From contig PCBG01000012.1 of NCBI GenBank assembly GCA_002731315.1, positions 1 through 58,505 on the forward strand: 58,505 nucleotides of DNA, written 5' to 3'. This stretch comes from Rhodospirillaceae bacterium. Lineage in GTDB: Bacteria > Pseudomonadota > Alphaproteobacteria > Puniceispirillales > Puniceispirillaceae. This document shows, piece by piece, positions 9,410 to 35,631 of this stretch. Both the position numbers and the translations under genes were made by a program. How positions within the stretch are numbered: position 1 is the stretch's first letter; every line of letters begins with the position of its first letter. The notes beneath the pieces were generated by a model that did no database searches, had not been told where the DNA came from, and was given only the letters and a program-made list of their open reading frames with translations.

Positions 9410-10804
9410 ATGTCGACAGATTACATTGTGGCTGATCTTGAGCTCGCCGACTGGGGGCGCAAAGAACTGTCTATTGCTGAAACCGAAATGCCAGGCCTAA
9501 TGGCGCTGCGTGATGAATTTGGCGCAACAAAGCCGTTGAAAGGAGCGAGAGTCGCCGGGTGTCTGCATATGACCGTGCAGACGGCTGTCTTAATCGAAAC
9601 TCTCGTCGGTCTTGGCGCCGATGTGCGCTGGTCCTCCTGTAACATCTATTCGACACAGGATCAGGCCGCTGCTGCGATTGCCGCCGCAGGCGTGCCGGTA
9701 TTCGCCAAAAAAGGCGAGACTCTCGCTGAATATTGGGAGTATGTCGACCGCACCTTTACCTGGGGCGATGGCGGCACAGCCAATATGATCCTTGATGATG
9801 GCGGCGATGCCACAATGTATATCCTGCTTGGTGCACGCGCCGAGGCTGGTGAGGATGTGCTGGCCAACCCAACGAGTGAGGAAGAAGAATTTCTGAAGGC
9901 CCAGCTGCAAAAGCGGCTGGCGGAAAGCCCCGGCTGGTTCACCCGCCAGCGTGACGCCATCAAAGGCGTATCTGAAGAAACCACGACAGGTGTGCTGCGT
10001 TTATATCAGCTTGCTGAGGCAGGTGGTCTCCCATTTCCGGCGATCAACGTAAACGATTCGGTAACAAAGTCGAAATTCGACAACCTATACGGGTGTCGCG
10101 AATCGCTTGTGGATGGCATCCGCCGTGCTACTGATGTGATGCTGGCCGGCAAGGTTGCCGTGGTCGCCGGTTACGGCGATGTCGGCAAGGGATCAGCGGC
10201 CTCGTTGCGTCAGGGCGGTGCCCGCGTGATGGTGACAGAGGTCGATCCGATCTGCGCATTGCAGGCGGCCATGGAGGGCTATGAAGTCGTTACCATGGAA
10301 CAGGCTGCAACAAAGGCAGACATTTTTGTCACTGCAACCGGCAACCGTGATGTCATAACAATGGATCATATGCGCGAGATGAAAGACCGTGCCATCGTCT
10401 GCAATATTGGGCATTTCGACAATGAAATTCAGGTGTCGTCATTGCAGAACATGAACTGGTCCGAGATCAAGCCGCAGGTTGACGAGGTGGAATTCCCCGA
10501 TGGCAAGCGGATTATCATGCTGGCAAAGGGCCGTCTGGTGAATCTTGGCTGTGCGACTGGGCATCCTTCTTTTGTGATGTCCGCTTCCTTTGCCAACCAG
10601 GTATTGGCTCAAATGGAATTGTGGAACGAAGGCGACAAATACGAGCGTAAGGTCTACACATTGCCGCGCCACCTTGATGAAAAAGTTGCCGCGCTTCACC
10701 TTACAAAGGTTGGAGCAACCCTGTCGCAGCTGAGCGCAGAGCAAGCCTCTTATATCGGCGTGGAGGAGCAGGGACCATTCAAGAGTGAGCAGTATCGTTA
10801 CTAG
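9410..10804 (+). CDS. ahcY: adenosylhomocysteinase
   Basis: Cytosolic NAD-dependent enzyme that splits S-adenosylhomocysteine into adenosine and homocysteine, keeping methyl transfer running. Length (464 aa) is normal. The substrate region includes [16 protein letters not shown] and [13 protein letters not shown], the latter with the key Lys and Asp. The Rossmann motif [10 protein letters not shown] lies near residue 253, and the C-terminus ends in KSEQYRY, resembling the family's Lys-Tyr tail. AGGA lies six nt before ATG. tsaE begins inside its last codons, so the two are probably co-transcribed. Confidence 0.98.
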
Positions 10805-11294
10805 TCGCGTGCGCGATCTGGCGATTTATCTTCAGGACCCGGCCGCAACAGCGCGGCTGGGTCTTTTGGTTTCTGCCCACCTGCGTGCAGGTGATGTGGT
10901 GGCACTCGAAGGGACGCTGGGCGCCGGAAAATCGGTACTGGCACGTGCCGTGATCAGCACCTTATGCCCGATGGAAGATAATATACCCAGCCCAACCTTT
11001 ACCCTTGTCCAGACCTATGAGCCGGAAAAATTTCCGGTGATTATGCATTTTGACCTATATCGGCTCGAAACACCGGAAGAGGCGCTGGAACTTGGTATTG
11101 AAGATGCCTTTATTGATGCGGTATCGCTTGTCGAATGGCCCCAGCGACTTGGTGGTTATTTGCCGCGAACGGCATTGACCATTGACCTATCAGAAGGTGA
11201 CAGTGACACCAGCCGCCGCGCTAAGCTATATGGTGGAGTGCGCTGGCAGCCGATACTAGAAGCGCTGGCGGAGCAATTCCGGCGAGGGGTTTGA
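10785..11294 (+). CDS. tsaE: tRNA threonylcarbamoyladenosine biosynthesis ATPase TsaE
   Basis: P-loop ATPase that works with TsaB and TsaD to make t6A37 in ANN-decoding tRNAs, 169 aa. It shows the Walker [14 protein letters not shown] near residue 46, [11 protein letters not shown] (the switch-like region) and [20 protein letters not shown]. The GTG start lies 20 nt inside ahcY. In related genomes tsaE is followed by amgK- and murU-like genes before addB; here the next gene, after 108 nt, is the addB-addA fusion. Confidence 0.93.
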
Positions 11295-11402: not shown

Positions 11403-14400
11403 ATGACATCCCCACCCCGAAATGCTGTCTACAATATCCCTGCGGGCATACCCTTTGCCACAACGTTGGCCGGCGGCATCTGTCAGCTTGCCGGGGATGC
11501 GGAAACGCTTGCGCGCGCCACCATCATGGTGCCGTCACGCCGGGCGGCACAGGCGTTGCGCGCTGCCTTTCTGGAAATTCAAAAGGGCAAGGCCACATTG
11601 CTGCCGCGCATCGAGCCGCTTGGCGATGTCGCCGAGGACAGCCCCGAATTGCTGGTCATCCCTGAAATTGACAGCCTGTGCCCGCCGGCGATCAATCCAC
11701 TGCGGCGGCAGCTGACACTGGCGCGTCTGCTGCGCGGCTTTGCGCTTGGTGGCGTGGCGCCAACACCGCCGCAAACGGTGATGCTGGCGGAATCCCTTGG
11801 CCGGTTGCTGGATGCACTTTGCAACGCTGATGCCGCGCCAGCACAGCTGCGCGATCTTCTTCCCGACAGGTTTTCGGCCCATTGGCAGGATATTCTGGCA
11901 TTGCTGACCATTCTGATCGACAGGTGGCCGCAGTTTCTCGAGGATAGCGGCGAAATTGATGCCGCCGACAGGCGCAACCGGCTGCTGCGCCTGCGCAGCG
12001 CGGTATGGTGCGATGCACCGCCGCAGGGTCTGATTGTCATTGCCGGTTCCACCGGTACCTTTGCTGCCACGCGTGAACTGATTGGCTGTGTTGTGGCCCT
12101 GCCAAACGGGTATGTCGTGCTGCCGGGCCTCGATGCGGCGGCGGCGGATAACTGGCAGGATATCCGTGAGGATGCCGGCCACCCGCAGCATCAGCTGTCG
12201 GTGTTGCTGGACAGTCTGGCGCTGGCCCCGGGTGATGTACAACCATGGCCCCATGGTGCTGACATACCGCAAGCGACCTTGTTGCGTCAGGCGCTGATGC
12301 GTGAGGTATTCAAGCCTGCTGCCCTGACCGCGGACTGGCGCCAGCTTGGCAGCACACATCCTGAACTGGGGCGGGATGCGCTGGCGGGCTTGAGTGTGAT
12401 TGCCGCGCCAAACCGCGCGGTCGAGGCGAATATCATTGCGCTTGCCATGCGCGAGGTTCTGGAAACGCCGGAAAAGACCGCGGCGCTTGTAACCCCGGAC
12501 CGACAGCTTGCCGAAGCGGTGATTACAGCCCTGCAACGCTGGCAAATAAACGCCGATGATTCCGCTGGCCGGCCGCTGTCTGAATGCAGTGCGGGCGGCT
12601 TTCTGATGCTGCTTGTCACCATGATTGCCGAAGATTTCGCCCCTCTGCCAGCCTTGGCGTTCCTGAAACATCCCATGGTGGCAGGGGGGCTGCCGCCTGC
12701 CATGTTCCGCAGGCGCGTGCGCGACCTCGAATGCTGTGTCTGGCGTGGGTACCGCCCACCCCCGGGCCTTGACGGGGTACTGTCCCGCCTGCCGCCAGAC
12801 AGCGACCTGCATGATTTTGTGAACCGGCATATTGCCGCCCCGCTGGCCGAGCTTTGCGCGGTCTGGAACGGCACGCTGCCGACCCTTGCCGATCTGTCAT
12901 CCTGGCTTGGTCGCGCGGCCGAACGCATGGCGTCCCGCCGGCTGCAGGATGATGGCAGCATTGACGAGGCGGACGGGGCAACCGCCATCTGGGATGGCGA
13001 TGATGGCCGGGCTGCGGCTGATTTGCTGCGGGCACTGGTTGTCGAGGGGGATGTGTTCGAAGCGGATAACAGGTCCTTTCCGCAGATTCTGAAAAGCCTG
13101 ATGGAGAGCAAGACCGTCAGGGGCAGCTGGCAGGCGCATCCGCGTCTTGCAATTCTTGGCCCGGTTGAAGCCCGCATGCAGAGTGCTGACCGGCTGATCA
13201 TTGCCGGGTTCAATGAAGGCAACTGGCCGCCACGCCCGGAAATTGATCCCTGGATGAATGGCGAAATGCGTCAGACAGCTGGCTTGCAGCCGCATAACTG
13301 GCGCACCGGACTCAGCGCACATGATGTCTGGATGGCGGTCTGCGCGCCAGAGGTGATAGTAACGCGCGCGATGCGTGACGGGGATTCGGTCACCACGCCA
13401 AGCCGCTGGTTACAGCGGCTGGAGGCGGTGCTTGCGGCCCTGCAGATCACTGATGCGCTCAATCGTGGCGCGCTGATGACATCACGGCTGGCCGCGCTGT
13501 CCCCGTTGCCGCCGCTGACACCTGTCCGCCGTCCTGCCCCCTGTCCGCCAGTGGCGGCACGCCCCCGCCGTTTTTCAGCAACTGAAATTGATGACTGGAT
13601 TAGCGATCCTTACAGTATCTATGCCAAGCGTATTCTGAGTTTGCGGCCGCTGGACGATATTGACCGCGTACCTGATGCCGCGCTGCGTGGCAATATTGTG
13701 CATGATGCGCTGGCGGCTTTTGTCAAAGAATATCCCGAAGGCCCGCTGCCCGATGATGCGCTGTCACAGCTACGCCAATTTGCCAGAACATTTTTTGAAC
13801 CCTTCTGGCAGATCCCCAGTGTGCGCGTTTTCTGGTGGCCGGCATTTGAGCTGCTGTCATCCTGGTTTGTTGAAACCGAGCGGCGACGGCGCGCTGACCT
13901 TGCCCGTGCCCATGTGGAAATTGACGGCAAGCTGGCGATTGACGCGCCGGCAGGACGGGCAGAAATCAAGGCGCGGGCGGACCGGATTGACCAGTTGGCT
14001 GATGGCGGGCTGGCCATTCTGGATTACAAAACCGGCAGCGTGCCAAAACCGGCCGACGTTGAGGCGGGCCGCCGCACCCAGCTTTTGACCGAGGCTGTGA
14101 TTGCGGCTTATGGCGGGTTCGATGCGATTGCCGGTGACGATATTGCGGCGATGCAATATTGGAAACTGGCAGGCCGGCGCGGCGAGGCAGGGCTGATTGT
14201 CGATGTGATGCCGGATGGGTGGAATGTTGCGGCCGCGCACGACAATCTGGCGGCGCTGGTTGCCAGCTTTGATCACCCCGATATGGCTTATGCCAGCCTT
14301 CCGGACCCGTCAACGCGGCTGCCCTTTGCGCGCTATGATCACCTTGCCCGGGTTGAAGAATGGCTGCCGGTGGAGTCCGCCAGCGACGAGGTGACACGTA

Positions 14401-17400
14401 TAGAATGGCCGGTGCCTGCCGCTGGTCGTCTGGCAGACAGCAAGGTCGATGATATCGACCCGCAGATTGCCGGGCAGGCGTCAGGCCAGCAGGCAGCCGC
14501 CTCGGATCCCAGTGTGTCGGTGTTTGTTTCGGCCAATGCCGGCACTGGCAAGACCAAGCTGCTCACAGACCGGGTCTTGCGGCTGATGCTGGATGGCGCA
14601 CCGCCCGAGAGCATTTTGTGTGTGACCTATACGCGTGCTGCTGCCGCGGAAATGCGCAACCGGATTTCGGTGCGGCTTGCCTCATGGACGGTGATGACAA
14701 GCGAGGATCTGCGCAGCGACCTCGCGCGGATGGGGATCGCGGTACCTTCGCAACTGGTGTTGCAACGCGCGCGCAGCCTCTTTGCCGAAATTCTGGACAG
14801 TGACGACGGCCCCCGCATGGAAACCGTCCATTCATTTTGCCAGTCCGTTCTGCGCCGCTTTCCGATTGAGGCCGGGATCGTGCCAAATGCCGAATTGGCG
14901 GACGAGCTGGAACAGGCGCGGTTGAAGGCACAGGTGCGCGAAACGCTGATGCAAAGTCCGTTGCCAGAGATGGCGCGCGCCATTGCCACCCTTGCCGAGC
15001 AGACGGGCGAGAGCACCGCCGAGGAACTGCTTGCCAACCTGATGCGTGCGGAAAGGCGGATTGGCGCGCCGGATATCCTGCAGGCACTGGATACCCATTT
15101 TTCCGAGAGTTGCGGCATTGCAGCGGACAGTGATGCGAATAGGCTGCTGGACCGGGCGGTCGCGGCATTGGATATGAAACAGCTGCGCCAGGCGGCAATG
15201 GCGCTTGCTGCAAGCGATGTCAAAACGCATGTGAATCGCGCCACGCTGATCACCACATGGCTTGGCGAGGATGATCTCGGCAGACGGTTCCATATCGATC
15301 TGCTAGTTACGGCCTTGTTCACAGACGGCAGGCCACTTGCCGAACGAAGCCTGTCAAACAAGGATATCCGTGCCGCCTTCCCTGGCATTCTGGCGGTGCT
15401 GCAGGGCGCGCAGGATGCGCTCGCCAGCTTTGTTACGACGCAGATCAATCTGCGCTGCCGCGATTTGACGACCGCGCTCTACACCTATGGGCATGCCTTT
15501 CACCAGACCTATACCGCCTTGAAAGCCCGTCTGGGCGTGCTGGATTATGACGATTTGATTGCCCTGACCAACCGCATGCTGTCGCGCAGCGACGCTGCCG
15601 ACTGGGTCGCATGGAAGCTCGATAGTGCAATCCGCCATATGCTGGTTGACGAGGCGCAGGACACAAGCCCGGCGCAATGGCAATTGCTGCGCCGCCTGAG
15701 TGATGCCTTTTTTGACAGTCCGGTAGACGATCCCGAAACGCGCCGTACCCTGTTTGTTGTCGGTGACTTCAAACAATCCATCTATTCCTTCCAGGGGGCC
15801 GATCCTGTGGTCATGGGGGCGGTTCGACTGGACTTGCGGGAGCGGGCAAAGGCGTTGCGGCATCCCTTGCGTGATGTTGCGCTTGATGTCTCGTTCCGTA
15901 CCGCGCAACCGGTCCTTGATCTGGTGAATCGGGTCATGCAGGGGTTGGAGGGCATCACCGATCCGCCCCGCTTGCCTGACTTTCTGCCGCACAGGTCTGC
16001 ACGGCCGAAGGCGGGTGGTTTTGTCGAGATCTGGCCGGTAACGCGGGTGGCGGCGGACACCGCGCCCTTGCCGGGATTTGCCCCGCCGCCGGTCATTGTA
16101 CCGCAGGATGCGGCGGCGCAGGCGGCGCATGAGGTGGCTGCGCGCATCGTGGGCTGGATGGGGACGCGGCGCCTGTCTTCTGGCCAGATGATGCAGCCTG
16201 GCGATGTGATGATCCTGCTGCGCAAAAGGGATCGCTATTACCAGCTGCTCCTTGCGGCGCTGCAACGCGCCGGTCTACCGGTGGCCGGCGCCGACCGGAT
16301 GACCCTGTGTGACCAGATAGAGATCATGGATTTGCTGGCACTAGGGGATGTCGCATTGTTGCCGGATGACGACCTGCAGCTTGCAACAGTGTTGAAATCA
16401 CCGCTGTTCGGCATGGATGAGGATACCCTCTTTGATCTGGCCAGCCAGCGCGACAAGGCCACGTTGTTTGCGCGGCTTATGGCGCATGCCGGGGGAGAGT
16501 CACAGCTGGGCCGCATGGCCACGCGCCTGAAGCGCTTTTGCGACATGGTGGACAGGGTTTCGGTCTTTTCCTTTTTCAGTACTGTTCTGGGTGAATGCCG
16601 GCAGGATTTCCGTGCCCGGCTGGGTGGCGCGGTGGATGAATCGCTGGATCATCTGCTGACGCGCGCGCAGGAATTCGGTAATGGCGGCGGCGCGTCACTC
16701 ACCGAATTTCTGGCGCTTGTGCGGGGCAGTGGTGGCGATGTGCGGCGCGATATGGATACCGCCGTCACCAATGAAATCAGGGTTATGACGATCCATGGCG
16801 CCAAGGGGCTCGAGGCACCGGTGGTTGTCTTGCCTGACATGCTGCGCGCCAGCAACAGCCGTGACCGCCTGATTGCCGATCAGGAAAGTGGTTTTGTCTA
16901 TTGGGCGCCTTCAGCCGGCGGCAGGCCATCCTTTGTCAGTAATGCAAAGAATGATGCTGACAGCGCCGCACGCAAAGAGGAAAACAGGCTGCTCTATGTG
17001 GCGCTGACGCGCGCACGCGACGGGCTTGCCATTGGCGGCTGGGAGGCACCATATCGCCGCTTCATGAAAGAAAGCGCCTATCAGTCCATTGCCGCCGCTG
17101 CTGCGGAAATGGACGGTTTCACCCCTGATACAGACGGTATTCTGCAATATGTTAGCGAGGTCGAAACGGTAAGTGAGGTCATCGCTGAAAACATCCCGCC
17201 AGCCCCGCCTGTGGAATCTGCGGCCCCCGTCTGGCTGGTACAGGCTGCGCCTGCCGAGCCACATCCACCGCGTCCGTTGCGCCCATCCATGCCCGATGCC
17301 AGCACGATGGCGGCGACGGCCCCCGGCACCGCCCTTTTGGCCGCGTCACAGGCTTTGACGCGGGGACGACTGGCGCACCGGCTGTTTGAGGTCTTGCCTG

Positions 17401-17852
17401 CCCTGCCATCGAACAGGCAGCAGGATGCTGCGCAGAGGATAATTGCCGGTGAAGCAGATCTGCCCGCAGATACGGGACAGCAGATTGTCAGCGATGTGAT
17501 GCGGGTCATGGCGATGCCTGAACTGGCGGCTCTGTTTGGCCATGACGCGCTGGCCGAGGTGTCTGTCAGCGGGGTGGTTGCCGGCAATGGTGTAGCCGGC
17601 CAGATTGACCGGCTGCATGTTGGTCCGGACCGTGTTCTGATTGCCGACTTCAAGACCGGCCCTATGCCCCCCGCTGCGCCGCAAGCTTATATCCGTCAGT
17701 TGGCCCTTTATGGGGCGCTGCTCGAACAGATTTATCCGGACCATCAGATTATCACCTGGCTTGTCTGGACCGAGGCAACTGCTGTTCAGGAAATTACAGA
17801 AACTGCCCGCGCCTATACGTTGACGGCTCTTGTTTCTACGACGGGCGCTTGA
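11403..17852 (+). CDS. addBA: AddB-AddA fusion: double-strand break repair helicase-nuclease
   Basis: One open frame of 2149 codons joins the two subunits of the alphaproteobacterial AddAB recombination enzyme, which resects broken DNA ends for RecA. Residues 1 to about 990 are AddB: a helicase-like region beginning IPAGIPFATTLAGG and VPSRRAAQALR, and a C-terminal nuclease with GNIVHDAL near 761, ADRID near 858 and ILDYKTG near 872. After a linker (about 990-1025) AddA follows: Walker A ANAGTGKT near 1043, TYTRAAAAEM, VDEAQDTSPAQW near 1413, GDFKQSIYSFQGADP, MTIHGAKGLE near 1792, ALTRARDG, and a second nuclease with GRLAHRLFE, GQIDRL near 2065 and IADFKTG near 2078. Both nucleases and the motor look intact. 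No ATG lies in the linker, so two separate products would need a GTG start. Normally these are two adjacent genes. Confidence 0.95.
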   Translation: MTSPPRNAVYNIPAGIPFATTLAGGICQLAGDAETLARATIMVPSRRAAQALRAAFLEIQKGKATLLPRIEPLGDVAEDSPELLVIPEIDSLCPPAINPLRRQLTLARLLRGFALGGVAPTPPQTVMLAESLGRLLDALCNADAAPAQLRDLLPDRFSAHWQDILALLTILIDRWPQFLEDSGEIDAADRRNRLLRLRSAVWCDAPPQGLIVIAGSTGTFAATRELIGCVVALPNGYVVLPGLDAAAADNWQDIREDAGHPQHQLSVLLDSLALAPGDVQPWPHGADIPQATLLRQALMREVFKPAALTADWRQLGSTHPELGRDALAGLSVIAAPNRAVEANIIALAMREVLETPEKTAALVTPDRQLAEAVITALQRWQINADDSAGRPLSECSAGGFLMLLVTMIAEDFAPLPALAFLKHPMVAGGLPPAMFRRRVRDLECCVWRGYRPPPGLDGVLSRLPPDSDLHDFVNRHIAAPLAELCAVWNGTLPTLADLSSWLGRAAERMASRRLQDDGSIDEADGATAIWDGDDGRAAADLLRALVVEGDVFEADNRSFPQILKSLMESKTVRGSWQAHPRLAILGPVEARMQSADRLIIAGFNEGNWPPRPEIDPWMNGEMRQTAGLQPHNWRTGLSAHDVWMAVCAPEVIVTRAMRDGDSVTTPSRWLQRLEAVLAALQITDALNRGALMTSRLAALSPLPPLTPVRRPAPCPPVAARPRRFSATEIDDWISDPYSIYAKRILSLRPLDDIDRVPDAALRGNIVHDALAAFVKEYPEGPLPDDALSQLRQFARTFFEPFWQIPSVRVFWWPAFELLSSWFVETERRRRADLARAHVEIDGKLAIDAPAGRAEIKARADRIDQLADGGLAILDYKTGSVPKPADVEAGRRTQLLTEAVIAAYGGFDAIAGDDIAAMQYWKLAGRRGEAGLIVDVMPDGWNVAAAHDNLAALVASFDHPDMAYASLPDPSTRLPFARYDHLARVEEWLPVESASDEVTRIEWPVPAAGRLADSKVDDIDPQIAGQASGQQAAASDPSVSVFVSANAGTGKTKLLTDRVLRLMLDGAPPESILCVTYTRAAAAEMRNRISVRLASWTVMTSEDLRSDLARMGIAVPSQLVLQRARSLFAEILDSDDGPRMETVHSFCQSVLRRFPIEAGIVPNAELADELEQARLKAQVRETLMQSPLPEMARAIATLAEQTGESTAEELLANLMRAERRIGAPDILQALDTHFSESCGIAADSDANRLLDRAVAALDMKQLRQAAMALAASDVKTHVNRATLITTWLGEDDLGRRFHIDLLVTALFTDGRPLAERSLSNKDIRAAFPGILAVLQGAQDALASFVTTQINLRCRDLTTALYTYGHAFHQTYTALKARLGVLDYDDLIALTNRMLSRSDAADWVAWKLDSAIRHMLVDEAQDTSPAQWQLLRRLSDAFFDSPVDDPETRRTLFVVGDFKQSIYSFQGADPVVMGAVRLDLRERAKALRHPLRDVALDVSFRTAQPVLDLVNRVMQGLEGITDPPRLPDFLPHRSARPKAGGFVEIWPVTRVAADTAPLPGFAPPPVIVPQDAAAQAAHEVAARIVGWMGTRRLSSGQMMQPGDVMILLRKRDRYYQLLLAALQRAGLPVAGADRMTLCDQIEIMDLLALGDVALLPDDDLQLATVLKSPLFGMDEDTLFDLASQRDKATLFARLMAHAGGESQLGRMATRLKRFCDMVDRVSVFSFFSTVLGECRQDFRARLGGAVDESLDHLLTRAQEFGNGGGASLTEFLALVRGSGGDVRRDMDTAVTNEIRVMTIHGAKGLEAPVVVLPDMLRASNSRDRLIADQESGFVYWAPSAGGRPSFVSNAKNDADSAARKEENRLLYVALTRARDGLAIGGWEAPYRRFMKESAYQSIAAAAAEMDGFTPDTDGILQYVSEVETVSEVIAENIPPAPPVESAAPVWLVQAAPAEPHPPRPLRPSMPDASTMAATAPGTALLAASQALTRGRLAHRLFEVLPALPSNRQQDAAQRIIAGEADLPADTGQQIVSDVMRVMAMPELAALFGHDALAEVSVSGVVAGNGVAGQIDRLHVGPDRVLIADFKTGPMPPAAPQAYIRQLALYGALLEQIYPDHQIITWLVWTEATAVQEITETARAYTLTALVSTTGA

Positions 17853-17935: not shown

Positions 17936-18259
17936 ATGGCGACGACAAAAACGACAGATAGCGATTTTTCCTCTGATGTGCTGCAGGCTGACAAGCCTGT
18001 ACTGGTGGATTTCTGGGCAGAATGGTGCGGCCCGTGCAAGGCTATCGGGCCGGCGTTGGAGGAAATCAGTGACAACAAGGGTGACGCAATTTCGGTCATC
18101 AAGCTGAATATCGATGAGAACCCGCTGACTCCGCAGCAATATAATGTACGTGGCATTCCCACCCTGCTTATTTTCAAGGGTGGCGAGGTTGTCGCCGAAA
18201 AGGTGGGCGCTGTGCCAAAATCACAGCTGGAAGCTTGGATTGATTCCACAATCAGCTGA
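17936..18259 (+). CDS. trxA: thioredoxin
   Basis: Cytosolic disulfide reductase, 107 aa, with the active site WCGPC (VDFWAEWCGPCKAIGP) and the cis-proline segment GIPTLLIF. I use ATG 17936, with GGGGA 10 nt upstream, because it gives the standard thioredoxin N-terminus (MATTKTTDSDF). A longer frame from 17849 adds 29 residues of no thioredoxin character. It follows addBA as in other alphaproteobacteria and converges with folC, 40 nt away. Confidence 0.96.
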   Translation: MATTKTTDSDFSSDVLQADKPVLVDFWAEWCGPCKAIGPALEEISDNKGDAISVIKLNIDENPLTPQQYNVRGIPTLLIFKGGEVVAEKVGAVPKSQLEAWIDSTIS

Positions 18260-32984: not shown

Positions 32985-33225
32985 CAGCGGTGCCGTCCAT
33001 ACCTTGAGGTCCGACCCGTATGCCGCCTGCATTTCGCAGTTCTACCCTACAGGAAACAACCTTTGAAATGCTAGATAAAGATGCGCATTTGCGCCAGTCT
33101 GGCAGGAGGCGGCTTTGTCAGCAGGGCGCAATTCCTGCAGATGATGTCGCTGCCTTGCAAATCCGACTGCCCTTGCTGTGTTGCAACATAAGACAGAACC
33201 ATGTTTCAAGCGGGGAGTGAGTAAC

Positions 33226-35631
33226 ATGAAATCAAATTATCGTGTGGTGGTTATTGGTGGCGGCGTTGTGGGCGCCTCGATTATCTATCATTTGTCAAAG
33301 ATGGGTTGGTCGGATATCGCTCTGGTCGAAAGGTCTGTCCTGACAGCCGGGTCGAGCTGGCATGCTGCGGGAGGTGTCCATGCGCTGAATGCCGATCCGA
33401 ACATCTCGGCGCTGCAGGCCTACACGATTGACCTTCTCGGCAAAATCGAAGAGGAAAGCGGCCACTCGGTTGGCATGCACATGACCGGGGGCCTGACCCT
33501 TGCTGGCACGCCAGACCGCTGGGAATGGCTGCAATCGGCTTACCGCGTCTATCAGAGCATCGGTATCGAGGATGTCCGGCTTGTGACTCCGGAGGAAGCC
33601 GGCGAGCTGTGTCCGGTGCTGTCGACACATGGCATTCTTGGCGGACTTTGGGCTGACCGTGAAGGGTATGTCGATACCACCGGTACGGTTCTGGCCTATG
33701 CCGGCGCAGCAAAGAAGAATGGCGCCACCGTCATCGAACATAACCGTGTGCTGGAATTGAACCAAACGTCAGAAGGCTGGGATGTTGTGACGGAAAAGGG
33801 CACCATTTCTTGCGAGCATGTTGTCAATGCCGGCGGATTATGGGCCAAGCAGGTTGGCCGGATGGCCGGAATCGAACTGCCTGTCTCGCCGCTGGCCCAT
33901 CATTATCTATTGACCGAGGCGATCCCCGAAGTGGCCGCGCTTGGCCATGAACTACCGCTGGTTGTCGATCTAGAGGGCTTTACATATATGCGCCAGGATC
34001 AGCAGGGCATGCTATTGGGAATATATGAAATTAATCATCAGCACTGGATGATGGATGGTGCGCCTTGGGATTACGGCATAGAGCTGCTGAACGAGGATAT
34101 TGATCGGATTGAAAATGAACTGACTATGGGTTTCGAGCGTTATCCGGTATTGCAAAATGCTGGTGTACGTAACTGGGTGAACGGGGCGTTCACCTTCTCG
34201 CCCGATGGCAACCCGCTTGTCGGTCCTGTGCCGGGCAAGCGCAATTACTGGTCAGCTTGTGCGGTTATGGCCGGCTTCCTACAGGGCGGTGGCGTTGGCA
34301 AGTCGCTTGCCGAGTGGATGATCCATGGCGAGCCCGAGGCCGATGTCTACGGCATGGATGTGGCCCGCTACGGCCCGTTTGCCGAGAATAAGGAATACAT
34401 TAAGCAGACCACAGGGCAGTTCTATTCCCGACGGTTCGTAATGACCTATCCGAATGAACAGCTGCCAGCCGGTCGCCCCTTGAAAATGGCGCCAGCGCAT
34501 ACCGCAATGACAGCGGCTGGCGCTCAATGGGGATGCAGCTGGGACCTTGAGGTGCCGCTCTATTTTGCCCCGCAGGGTTTTGCCGAAACGCCGTCCCTGA
34601 AACGGTCGAACGCCTTTGACATTGTTGGGGCTGAATGCCGCGCGGTGCGAGAAAAGGTCGGGCTTCTCGATATTACGGGCTTTTCGCGCTTCGAGGTGTC
34701 CGGCTCGCGTGCCGAAGTCTGGCTTGCCAAGATTTTTGCTACACGACTCCCTGCAACAGGACGCGCGCGCCTGGCTGTCGCGCTTGGTCACGATGGCCGA
34801 TTGAAAGGCGATCTGACGCTGTTCAATTGGGGCGATGGCCGGTGGTGGGTCATGGGATCCTATTATCTGCGCAGCTGGCATATGCGGTGGTTCAACGACC
34901 ATCTTGATGACGGTGTGACTATTCGTGATCTGGGCGAGGAAATTGCTGGATTTTCGCTGTCAGGACCGAAGTCGCTGGCGGTCATTCAAAAGCTGACTGA
35001 CGGCGCTGTCGGCGATCTGCCCTTTATGGGATGTGGTGCGTTCGATATCGGGCTGGCGCGCACCCATATCGGCCGCCTGTCAGTCACGGGCGAGGCCGGC
35101 TATGAAATCAGCTGCCGCATGGGTGATCATATCGCCTTGCGGCAAATGTTGCTGGATGCGGGCGCCGACCAGGGGATTGTTGAATACGGTTTCAATGCGC
35201 TGCTTTCGCTGCGTCTTGAGAAAAGCTACGGCATCTGGTCCACCGAATTTACTCAGGGATATACCCCTTGCATGACTGGTATGGACCGATGGATTGACTG
35301 GAACAGAGAGACCTTTATCGGCCGGGAGGCAGCGCTTGCCGAGCGCGATGGCAATGGTCCTGCGCAGCGCCTTGTGACACTTGAAGTGGCGGCAGAGGGT
35401 GCCGATGCCGGCGGCTATGAACCTGTTTGGTTGGCAGGCGAAAAGGTTGGCTTCATCACCTCCGGCGGCTATGGTCATACGGTTGAGAAGTCGCTGGCAA
35501 TGGCGCTGGTTAATACCGATTTGGCCGAGGTCGACACCGATCTGACAGCACATATAGTGGGGGTCGAGAGGGATGTGAAAGTTATTGCGCCATCACCCTA
35601 TGATCCAGTCGGTGCGGTGATGCGTGCCTGA
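33226..35631 (+). CDS. dimethylglycine/sarcosine dehydrogenase-like protein (FAD-GcvT)
   Basis: Two-part enzyme of 801 aa that oxidatively demethylates an N-methylated glycine and passes the one-carbon unit to tetrahydrofolate. The N-terminal DAO domain starts with the dinucleotide motif VVVIGGGVVGASIIYHLSKMG. SSWHAAGG carries the histidine that binds FAD covalently in this family. A GcvT-like domain (about 430-700: LLDITGFSRFEVSG, FSLSGPKSLAV, TGEAGYEISCRMG) and a GcvT C-terminal barrel (VGFITSGGYGHTVEKSLAMAL) follow. ATG 33226 has GGGGAG nearby upstream. The exact substrate cannot be told from sequence. A second FAD oxidoreductase follows directly. Confidence 0.88.
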   Translation: MKSNYRVVVIGGGVVGASIIYHLSKMGWSDIALVERSVLTAGSSWHAAGGVHALNADPNISALQAYTIDLLGKIEEESGHSVGMHMTGGLTLAGTPDRWEWLQSAYRVYQSIGIEDVRLVTPEEAGELCPVLSTHGILGGLWADREGYVDTTGTVLAYAGAAKKNGATVIEHNRVLELNQTSEGWDVVTEKGTISCEHVVNAGGLWAKQVGRMAGIELPVSPLAHHYLLTEAIPEVAALGHELPLVVDLEGFTYMRQDQQGMLLGIYEINHQHWMMDGAPWDYGIELLNEDIDRIENELTMGFERYPVLQNAGVRNWVNGAFTFSPDGNPLVGPVPGKRNYWSACAVMAGFLQGGGVGKSLAEWMIHGEPEADVYGMDVARYGPFAENKEYIKQTTGQFYSRRFVMTYPNEQLPAGRPLKMAPAHTAMTAAGAQWGCSWDLEVPLYFAPQGFAETPSLKRSNAFDIVGAECRAVREKVGLLDITGFSRFEVSGSRAEVWLAKIFATRLPATGRARLAVALGHDGRLKGDLTLFNWGDGRWWVMGSYYLRSWHMRWFNDHLDDGVTIRDLGEEIAGFSLSGPKSLAVIQKLTDGAVGDLPFMGCGAFDIGLARTHIGRLSVTGEAGYEISCRMGDHIALRQMLLDAGADQGIVEYGFNALLSLRLEKSYGIWSTEFTQGYTPCMTGMDRWIDWNRETFIGREAALAERDGNGPAQRLVTLEVAAEGADAGGYEPVWLAGEKVGFITSGGYGHTVEKSLAMALVNTDLAEVDTDLTAHIVGVERDVKVIAPSPYDPVGAVMRA

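Follow-up and report, generated by a model that had tools for sequence, protein, structure and literature searches.

Does a stretch of bacterial DNA in which two genes of one DNA-repair enzyme share a single reading frame encode a genuine one-chain enzyme, and if so, what does the joining of the two change? The question is raised by contig PCBG01000012.1 of the Rhodospirillaceae bacterium assembly GCA_002731315.1, analysed over 58,505 nucleotides (hereafter the window), where the genes for AddB and AddA, the two subunits of the helicase-nuclease AddAB, lie in one open frame on the forward strand. The frame starts with an ATG and runs for 2149 codons plus a stop, giving a product of 233.5 kDa, and the chance of 2149 open codons arising from base composition alone (55.9% GC in the window) is about 1e-36. 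We consider it roughly 87% probable that this is a real addB-addA fusion, fixed in one sampled SAR116 clade, whose single 233-kDa chain folds as the usual AddAB heterodimer. Most likely, the protein would work as AddAB normally does, with the tether holding its two subunits together permanently at 1:1.

Family membership was judged against the NCBI curated cut-offs. With hmmscan, residues 9-987 match TIGR02786 (addB_alphas) at 850.7 bits against a cut-off of 486.5, spanning model positions 2-1023 of 1024, and residues 1029-2130 match TIGR02784 (addA_alphas) at 933.5 bits against 860.75, spanning positions 2-1137 of 1138. The RecB family (TIGR00609) stays far below its threshold, with 165.9 bits against 696.05, and Pfam finds two PD-(D/E)XK nuclease stretches (PF12705) and one UvrD motor in the fused chain. 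The initial annotation, made from the sequence alone, had described AddB and AddA in one uninterrupted 2149-residue frame with the motifs of both nucleases and of the AddA motor, and it is borne out by the frame, by both family scores and by the presence of those motifs. It was also right that a linker joins the two parts, but not about its size of some 35 residues, as 45 residues separate the conserved HLARVEEW of AddB (ending at residue 987) from the ASDP of AddA (from residue 1033).

The residues expected of the AddA motor and nuclease are all present (K1050, D1416, E1417, Q1458, R1499, E1804, R1870, D2069, D2082 and K2084), as are the H, D, D and K of the AddB nuclease (Table 1), which we take to be its active site. 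The motif-I region of AddB reads IPAGIPFATT and lacks GK[ST], and AddA has a Walker A. This is the layout of AddAB, with one motor, two nucleases and, in AddB, a helicase-like part that has no functional Walker A. The checked nuclease and motor residues are intact in all fused rows that extend that far; the split rows also keep them, except for three E-to-Q replacements at motif V and one X. In AddB of the Bacillus subtilis type, the nuclease domain holds an iron-sulfur cluster. No cysteine occurs at residues 715-1072 of the fused chain, a span that includes the AddB nuclease domain, and the last 30% of AddB holds 0-4 cysteines across fused and split rows, with no conserved set of four. The domain thus lacks a cluster of the B. 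subtilis type, and this is not caused by fusion because split relatives also hold 0-4 cysteines there.

The fused frame is shared by close relatives. The closest genome contig, from the SAR116 metagenome-assembled genome ARS84 1073 (genome G001, locus L001), carries it with 97% identity across all 2149 residues. Taking a match stronger than E 1e-20 as the mark of an AddAB-bearing genome, 63 of 136 genomes in the order of genome G001 bear AddAB, and of these 11 are fused, 48 are unfused and four have pieces away from the junction only and were left uncalled (G084, G099, G103, G105). The initial annotation had proposed searching related genomes for one-gene AddBA and had allowed that close relatives might all have two genes; the closest relatives are in fact fused. 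Because open-frame values in the search table can read through stops, as they do in at least one case (G095 is given as 2144, whereas its locus has two separate frames), each of the 11 fused calls was confirmed on the locus itself. The whole frame is seen in G001, G113, G114, G116, G118, G119, G121 and G123, and a frame that crosses the junction yet is cut by a contig end in G117, G120 and G122. The unfused genomes comprise 38 checked at the locus and 10 judged from short open frames or an AddB stop (G068, G072, G081, G096, G100, G107, G109, G111, G112, G133). In G001, neither a separate addA nor a separate addB accompanies the fused gene, the other matches in that genome being confined to a UvrD-like frame of 774 residues.

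In a tree of concatenated AddB and AddA with 51 rows (the window, the 11 fused genomes and 39 split rows including the outgroup G003), all fused rows form one clade with a Shimodaira-Hasegawa-like approximate likelihood ratio support of 100 and a single change of state, in a topology obtained by a quick method, with some long outer branches and some forks open. All 11 sampled genomes of this clade that bear the gene have kept the fused state. Outside the clade, Ca. Puniceispirillum marinum IMCC1322 is unfused, with a standalone AddA of 1162 residues (P0209), and in G080 addB and addA are separate genes at the locus. Among the 120 matches listed in a search with the AddA half, no true standalone AddA exceeds 53% identity; three candidates above that value were rejected, P0196 as a fragment that starts at an internal methionine past Walker A, and P0041 and P0043 as cut fused proteins. 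Two further observations concern the same order. In genomes G004-G066, AddA above the family cut-off was found in 0 of 63, against 4 of 4 AddAB-bearing controls, and these genomes are apparently a sub-lineage without AddAB. At the split locus L048 (G095), the frame switches inside AddA near query residue 1227, owing either to assembly error or to a broken gene.

How the fusion arose can be approached from the split junctions, 26 of 38 of which were parsed, the other 12 being missed by the pattern used. In these 26, the addA start codon lies at or overlaps the addB stop, and addA is in frame +1 (23 junctions) or +2 (3 junctions) relative to addB. AddB ends 5-8 residues past the conserved EW in ten parsed split relatives, and AddA begins 14-30 residues before ASDP in 17 standalone proteins, the distance being 14 or 15 in 12 of the 17. 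The commonest split lengths are 7 residues of AddB tail and 14 from the AddA start to ASDP, whereas the bridge of the 12 fused loci, the window among them, is 40-51 residues long, so that fusion needed a change of frame and, starting from the commonest split form, a net gain of about 20-30 codons. Most simply, the SAR116 fusion arose once, usually gaining some 20-30 disordered residues: the addB stop would have been lost and the frames joined, with the extra residues contributing to the bridge. In other parts of the class, G244, G249, G353 and G420 have addB, a stop and addA in the same frame, so that the loss of a single stop would fuse the genes in these four genomes. A related arrangement is seen at L088 (G306), an AT-rich genome of 0.9 Mb, where addB and addA share a frame but a short spacer containing in-frame stops lies between them.

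The bridge itself is under purifying selection, as evidenced by ratios of nonsynonymous to synonymous substitution (dN/dS) of 0.11-0.65 in eight pairs; those of AddB and AddA are 0.06-0.21, save for one 24-codon piece of AddA without replacements. A fold model gives an AddB-like nuclease domain, a low-confidence bridge and an AddA-like motor. The predicted local distance difference test score (pLDDT) falls below 50 at model residues 304-326, corresponding to residues 993-1015 of the bridge, which is predicted to be disordered. The VIA-align list for this model covers mostly model residues 335-858, and missing AddB entries there carry no meaning.

Fusions of the same kind are found beyond SAR116. 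With the fused chain as query, a search of 5.8 billion proteins yielded 266 matches, the best 120 of which were used, and a second search with an alignment of distant fused proteins as query gave 91; both scored only candidates sharing most words. An in-frame bridge is present in 65 protein clusters among the matches listed, and clusters P0001, P0015 and P0035 hold 203, 245 and 600 member sequences. On a 110-row FastTree of AddA, in which unfused rows are biased to long AddA and five frame-broken rows are present but excluded from the state count, the fused state changes four times. The unfused rows were long AddA matches and loci of the order, long matches with fewer than 1050 residues past Walker A having been dropped. 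A 38-row IQ-TREE again gave four changes. The four fused places are the SAR116 clade, P0044 (located among outer branches of that order), a clade resembling Rhodospirillales, and P0124/P0125/P0127. With the 38 rows, the approximately unbiased (AU) test rejects all fused rows as one clade (p-AU 1.2e-70) and also SAR116 plus P0044 as one clade (p-AU 3.5e-8). By these placements, in-frame fusions occur in at least three lineages besides the SAR116 clade. Gains are simpler than losses because the split form is widespread, although change counts alone cannot separate the two.

In a class sample of 385 genomes, at least five show stop-free in-frame homology across the junction, whole in G001, G171, G299 and G396 and partial in G472; the contigs of two of these genomes measure 0.9 and 3.4 Mb. 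AddB comes first in every fusion seen in these groups, matching the order of the operon. The initial annotation's claim of a new architecture for the family holds as regards a genuine, clade-wide AddB-AddA fusion but not as regards uniqueness, since 65 clusters, with fusions from three other lineages among them, carry the in-frame bridge. P0057, P0060, P0061, P0062, P0128 and P0129, in which the AddB C-terminus is lost just before the junction, were not counted as fusions; five of these six are the frame-broken rows of the 110-row tree. P0130 (1368 residues) and P0132 (1384 residues) keep the bridge but are short, and were left unclassified. Among plasmid records, 237 of 72,556 have a match, all below 60% identity; in the best 10 of the 237, H1 and H7 have separate genes, H6 has addA alone and the remainder have no gene named. 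In P0136 and P0137, an AddB-like part is joined to nucleotidyltransferase domains (in P0136 also to TsaE), echoing the gene order around addB; P0136 is listed in a eukaryotic data set and could be a contaminant.

Whether the fusion brought an advantage is a separate matter. It may have arisen neutrally, as a by-product of compact genomes in which genes of the same direction overlap, an explanation that is compatible with ordinary AddAB function and to which we give only slightly less than even odds. It would fit the existence of same-direction neighbours near fusion, as in the four class-sample genomes with a single intervening stop, the listed genome sizes in the order of about 1.0-2.8 Mb, and the fast divergence of the bridge. 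Retention in all 11 sampled clade genomes speaks against it, as does the appearance of the fused state at four distinct points of the AddA tree, each time with the same gene order, although recurrence would be equally expected if adjacent genes fuse easily and neutrally. The opposite view, that covalent tethering was selected and reached at least four times, always with AddB first, and that the single chain resects DNA ends differently from two-subunit AddAB, seems rather unlikely. The reason would be that a single chain cannot lose a subunit during long runs, or that the tether alters the switch at Chi. Marsh et al. 2013 (PMC4009401) report a tendency for fusions to link those termini that lie closer together in a complex, and to make assembly simpler. 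The repeated AddB-first fusion fits this trend, but the order of the genes would by itself lead to the same outcome.

A different possibility is that the one frame yields two proteins, either through a second translation start inside the bridge or through proteolytic cleavage of this disordered segment. The bridge in the window has three in-frame GTG codons, with two more just past ASDP, methionine is present in 32 of the 65 bridges of fused clusters, and the low-confidence bridge may be accessible to proteases. The initial annotation had argued against simple internal initiation from the lack of ATG in the linker; ATG is indeed absent from the bridge in the window, but the argument is weak alone since GTG is present. 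More telling is that the fused clade has no conserved start codon: none is common to all 12 fused loci, and the commonest candidate, a GTG 15 codons before the end of ASDP, occurs in 7 of the 12 and is missing from the window. Moreover, inspection by eye finds no good ribosome-binding site upstream of the GTGs in the window. Of the 26 parsed split junctions, 25 have an ATG no more than 11 bases from the addB stop (L061 has GTG instead), and the window has lost this codon. Two products from one frame are thus improbable. Finally, that a sequencing or assembly indel in this contig joins two ordinary genes, as the initial annotation had warned of a missed indel near the junction, is hardly credible: such artefacts seem to exist in the family (the six clusters named above apparently lose the AddB C-terminus into another frame, and G095 switches frame within AddA), but in the window the homology stays in one frame through the end of AddB and the start of AddA, the same frame is found independently in L001 and in many other assemblies, all 12 fused loci agree despite diverged bridges of differing length, and the bridge shows purifying selection.

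Some points do weigh against a single, ordinarily folded chain of the origin proposed above. The bridges of the window and L012 are only 33% identical, suggesting that the bridge sequence itself is hardly constrained, and the alignment behind the fold model contained only fused proteins; the model also has further stretches of low confidence and gives no inter-domain geometry. Long AddA N-termini of 26-30 residues before ASDP are known from P0197, P0201 and P0202, and if these are nearer the ancestor, the net gain at fusion could be less than 20. The chain could be cut post-translationally, and minor internal initiation from the in-frame GTG codons of the bridge is possible. A long open frame alone is also weak evidence in GC-rich genomes. 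For instance, the 2226-codon frame of G165 (L100) was rejected as a fusion: it is the frame of AddA, which happens to stay open underneath AddB, itself encoded in a different frame.

With a genuine fusion as the preferred reading, the product would be a single 233-kDa chain folded like the AddAB heterodimer, and ordinary AddAB chemistry is expected because the fused protein keeps the parts for AddAB activity. In B. subtilis AddAB (PMC4824097), there is one AddA motor, the AddA nuclease acts on the 3' strand and the AddB nuclease on the 5' strand, and the helicase-like part of AddB scans for Chi. By analogy, the AddA motor here would move 3' to 5', the AddA nuclease would cut the 3' strand and the AddB nuclease the 5' strand, and the AddB helicase-like part would scan the 3' strand. 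The tether would provide covalent 1:1 coupling in place of the translational coupling of overlapping genes, and the chemistry should stay unchanged.

Table 1. Features of the fused gene and its neighbours (positions in the window; residues in the fused chain).
Feature	Position	Strand	Basis
Fused addBA gene	11403..17852	+	Open frame; AddB and AddA family matches; 97% identical fused frame in L001
AddB part, residues 1-987, C-terminal end at conserved HLARVEEW	11403..14363	+	TIGR02786
AddB PD-(D/E)XK nuclease domain, residues 723-924; H767, D860, D874, K876	13569..14174	+	
Bridge, residues 988-1032, 45 residues	14364..14498	+	Low pLDDT at 993-1015; dN/dS
AddA part, residues 1033-2149	14499..17849	+	TIGR02784
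AddA Walker A SANAGTGKT, residues 1043-1051	14529..14555	+	Motif check
AddA motif II DEAQDTS, residues 1416-1422	15648..15668	+	Motif check
AddA PD-(D/E)XK nuclease domain, about residues 1982-2111; H1992, D2069, D2082, K2084	17346..17735	+	PF12705, motif check
tsaE, upstream neighbour	10785..11294	+	tblastn at 48/50 loci
trxA (thioredoxin), downstream neighbour	17936..18259	+	tblastn at 47/50 loci

Fused and split genomes share the two neighbours, presumably tsaE and trxA, at the frequencies in Table 1; the 50 loci count three genomes twice, and those without a neighbour match sit near contig ends. Apart from this locus, the window encodes at 33178-35631 an 817-residue protein with an N-terminal half like FAD-dependent oxidoreductases and a C-terminal half like GcvT, which falls under the cut-off of all 25 NCBIfam families listed.

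In the open-access full-text literature searched (titles and abstract starts, with most subscription papers outside it), no natural AddB-AddA fusion is described. In public databases, fused proteins appear as AddA, subunit B or hypothetical, where they are named. Automatic annotation often conceals the fusion under the name AddA, as NCBI does for P0021, P0031 and P0046, so that a survey of genes in these bacteria may seem to show no AddB. AddAB and RecBCD are multi-subunit machines, and a natural one-chain version with both nucleases and the motor would give single-molecule and structural studies an enzyme already fixed at 1:1, and would allow a test of whether the exchange of subunits affects resection and the response to Chi. 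Stages of the transition are visible: genes that overlap, in the order; genes that abut in one frame, in other parts of the class; and fused genes. The cause and consequence of fusion are thus testable in relatives.

Compared with known systems, the window protein is closest to the two-subunit AddAB of alphaproteobacteria such as IMCC1322, with which it shares both TIGR families, gene order, the tsaE and trxA neighbours and catalytic residues; the difference is that addB and addA are separate genes there, and here one chain with a 45-residue bridge departs from AddAB as a complex of two separate polypeptides. The other fused AddBA proteins (P0044; P0045-P0056, P0058, P0059, P0121-P0123 and P0126; P0124, P0125 and P0127) have the same in-frame order of AddB, bridge and AddA, with full lengths of about 2120-2210 residues and bridges of 31-69, but their descent is separate from that of the SAR116 fusion; they appear alphaproteobacterial from the AddA-tree position of those placed. 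In the case of B. subtilis AddAB (3u44, 3u4q, 4cej), the AddA part of the window protein matches 3u44_A by sequence and fold and its AddB nuclease domain matches 3u4q_B by fold, whereas the B. subtilis enzyme consists of two polypeptides, and its AddB iron-sulfur cluster cannot form likewise in the window chain. Other helicase-nuclease fusions are P0179 (2040 residues, AdnAB-like) and P0182 (2340 residues), single chains in which a RecB-type nuclease is followed by a UvrD motor and then by another nuclease stretch; unlike the window protein, they lie far under the alphaproteobacterial AddA and AddB cut-offs. As these two proteins, AdnAB-like or AddBA-like, suggest, the fusion of helicase-nuclease subunits may recur in other groups.

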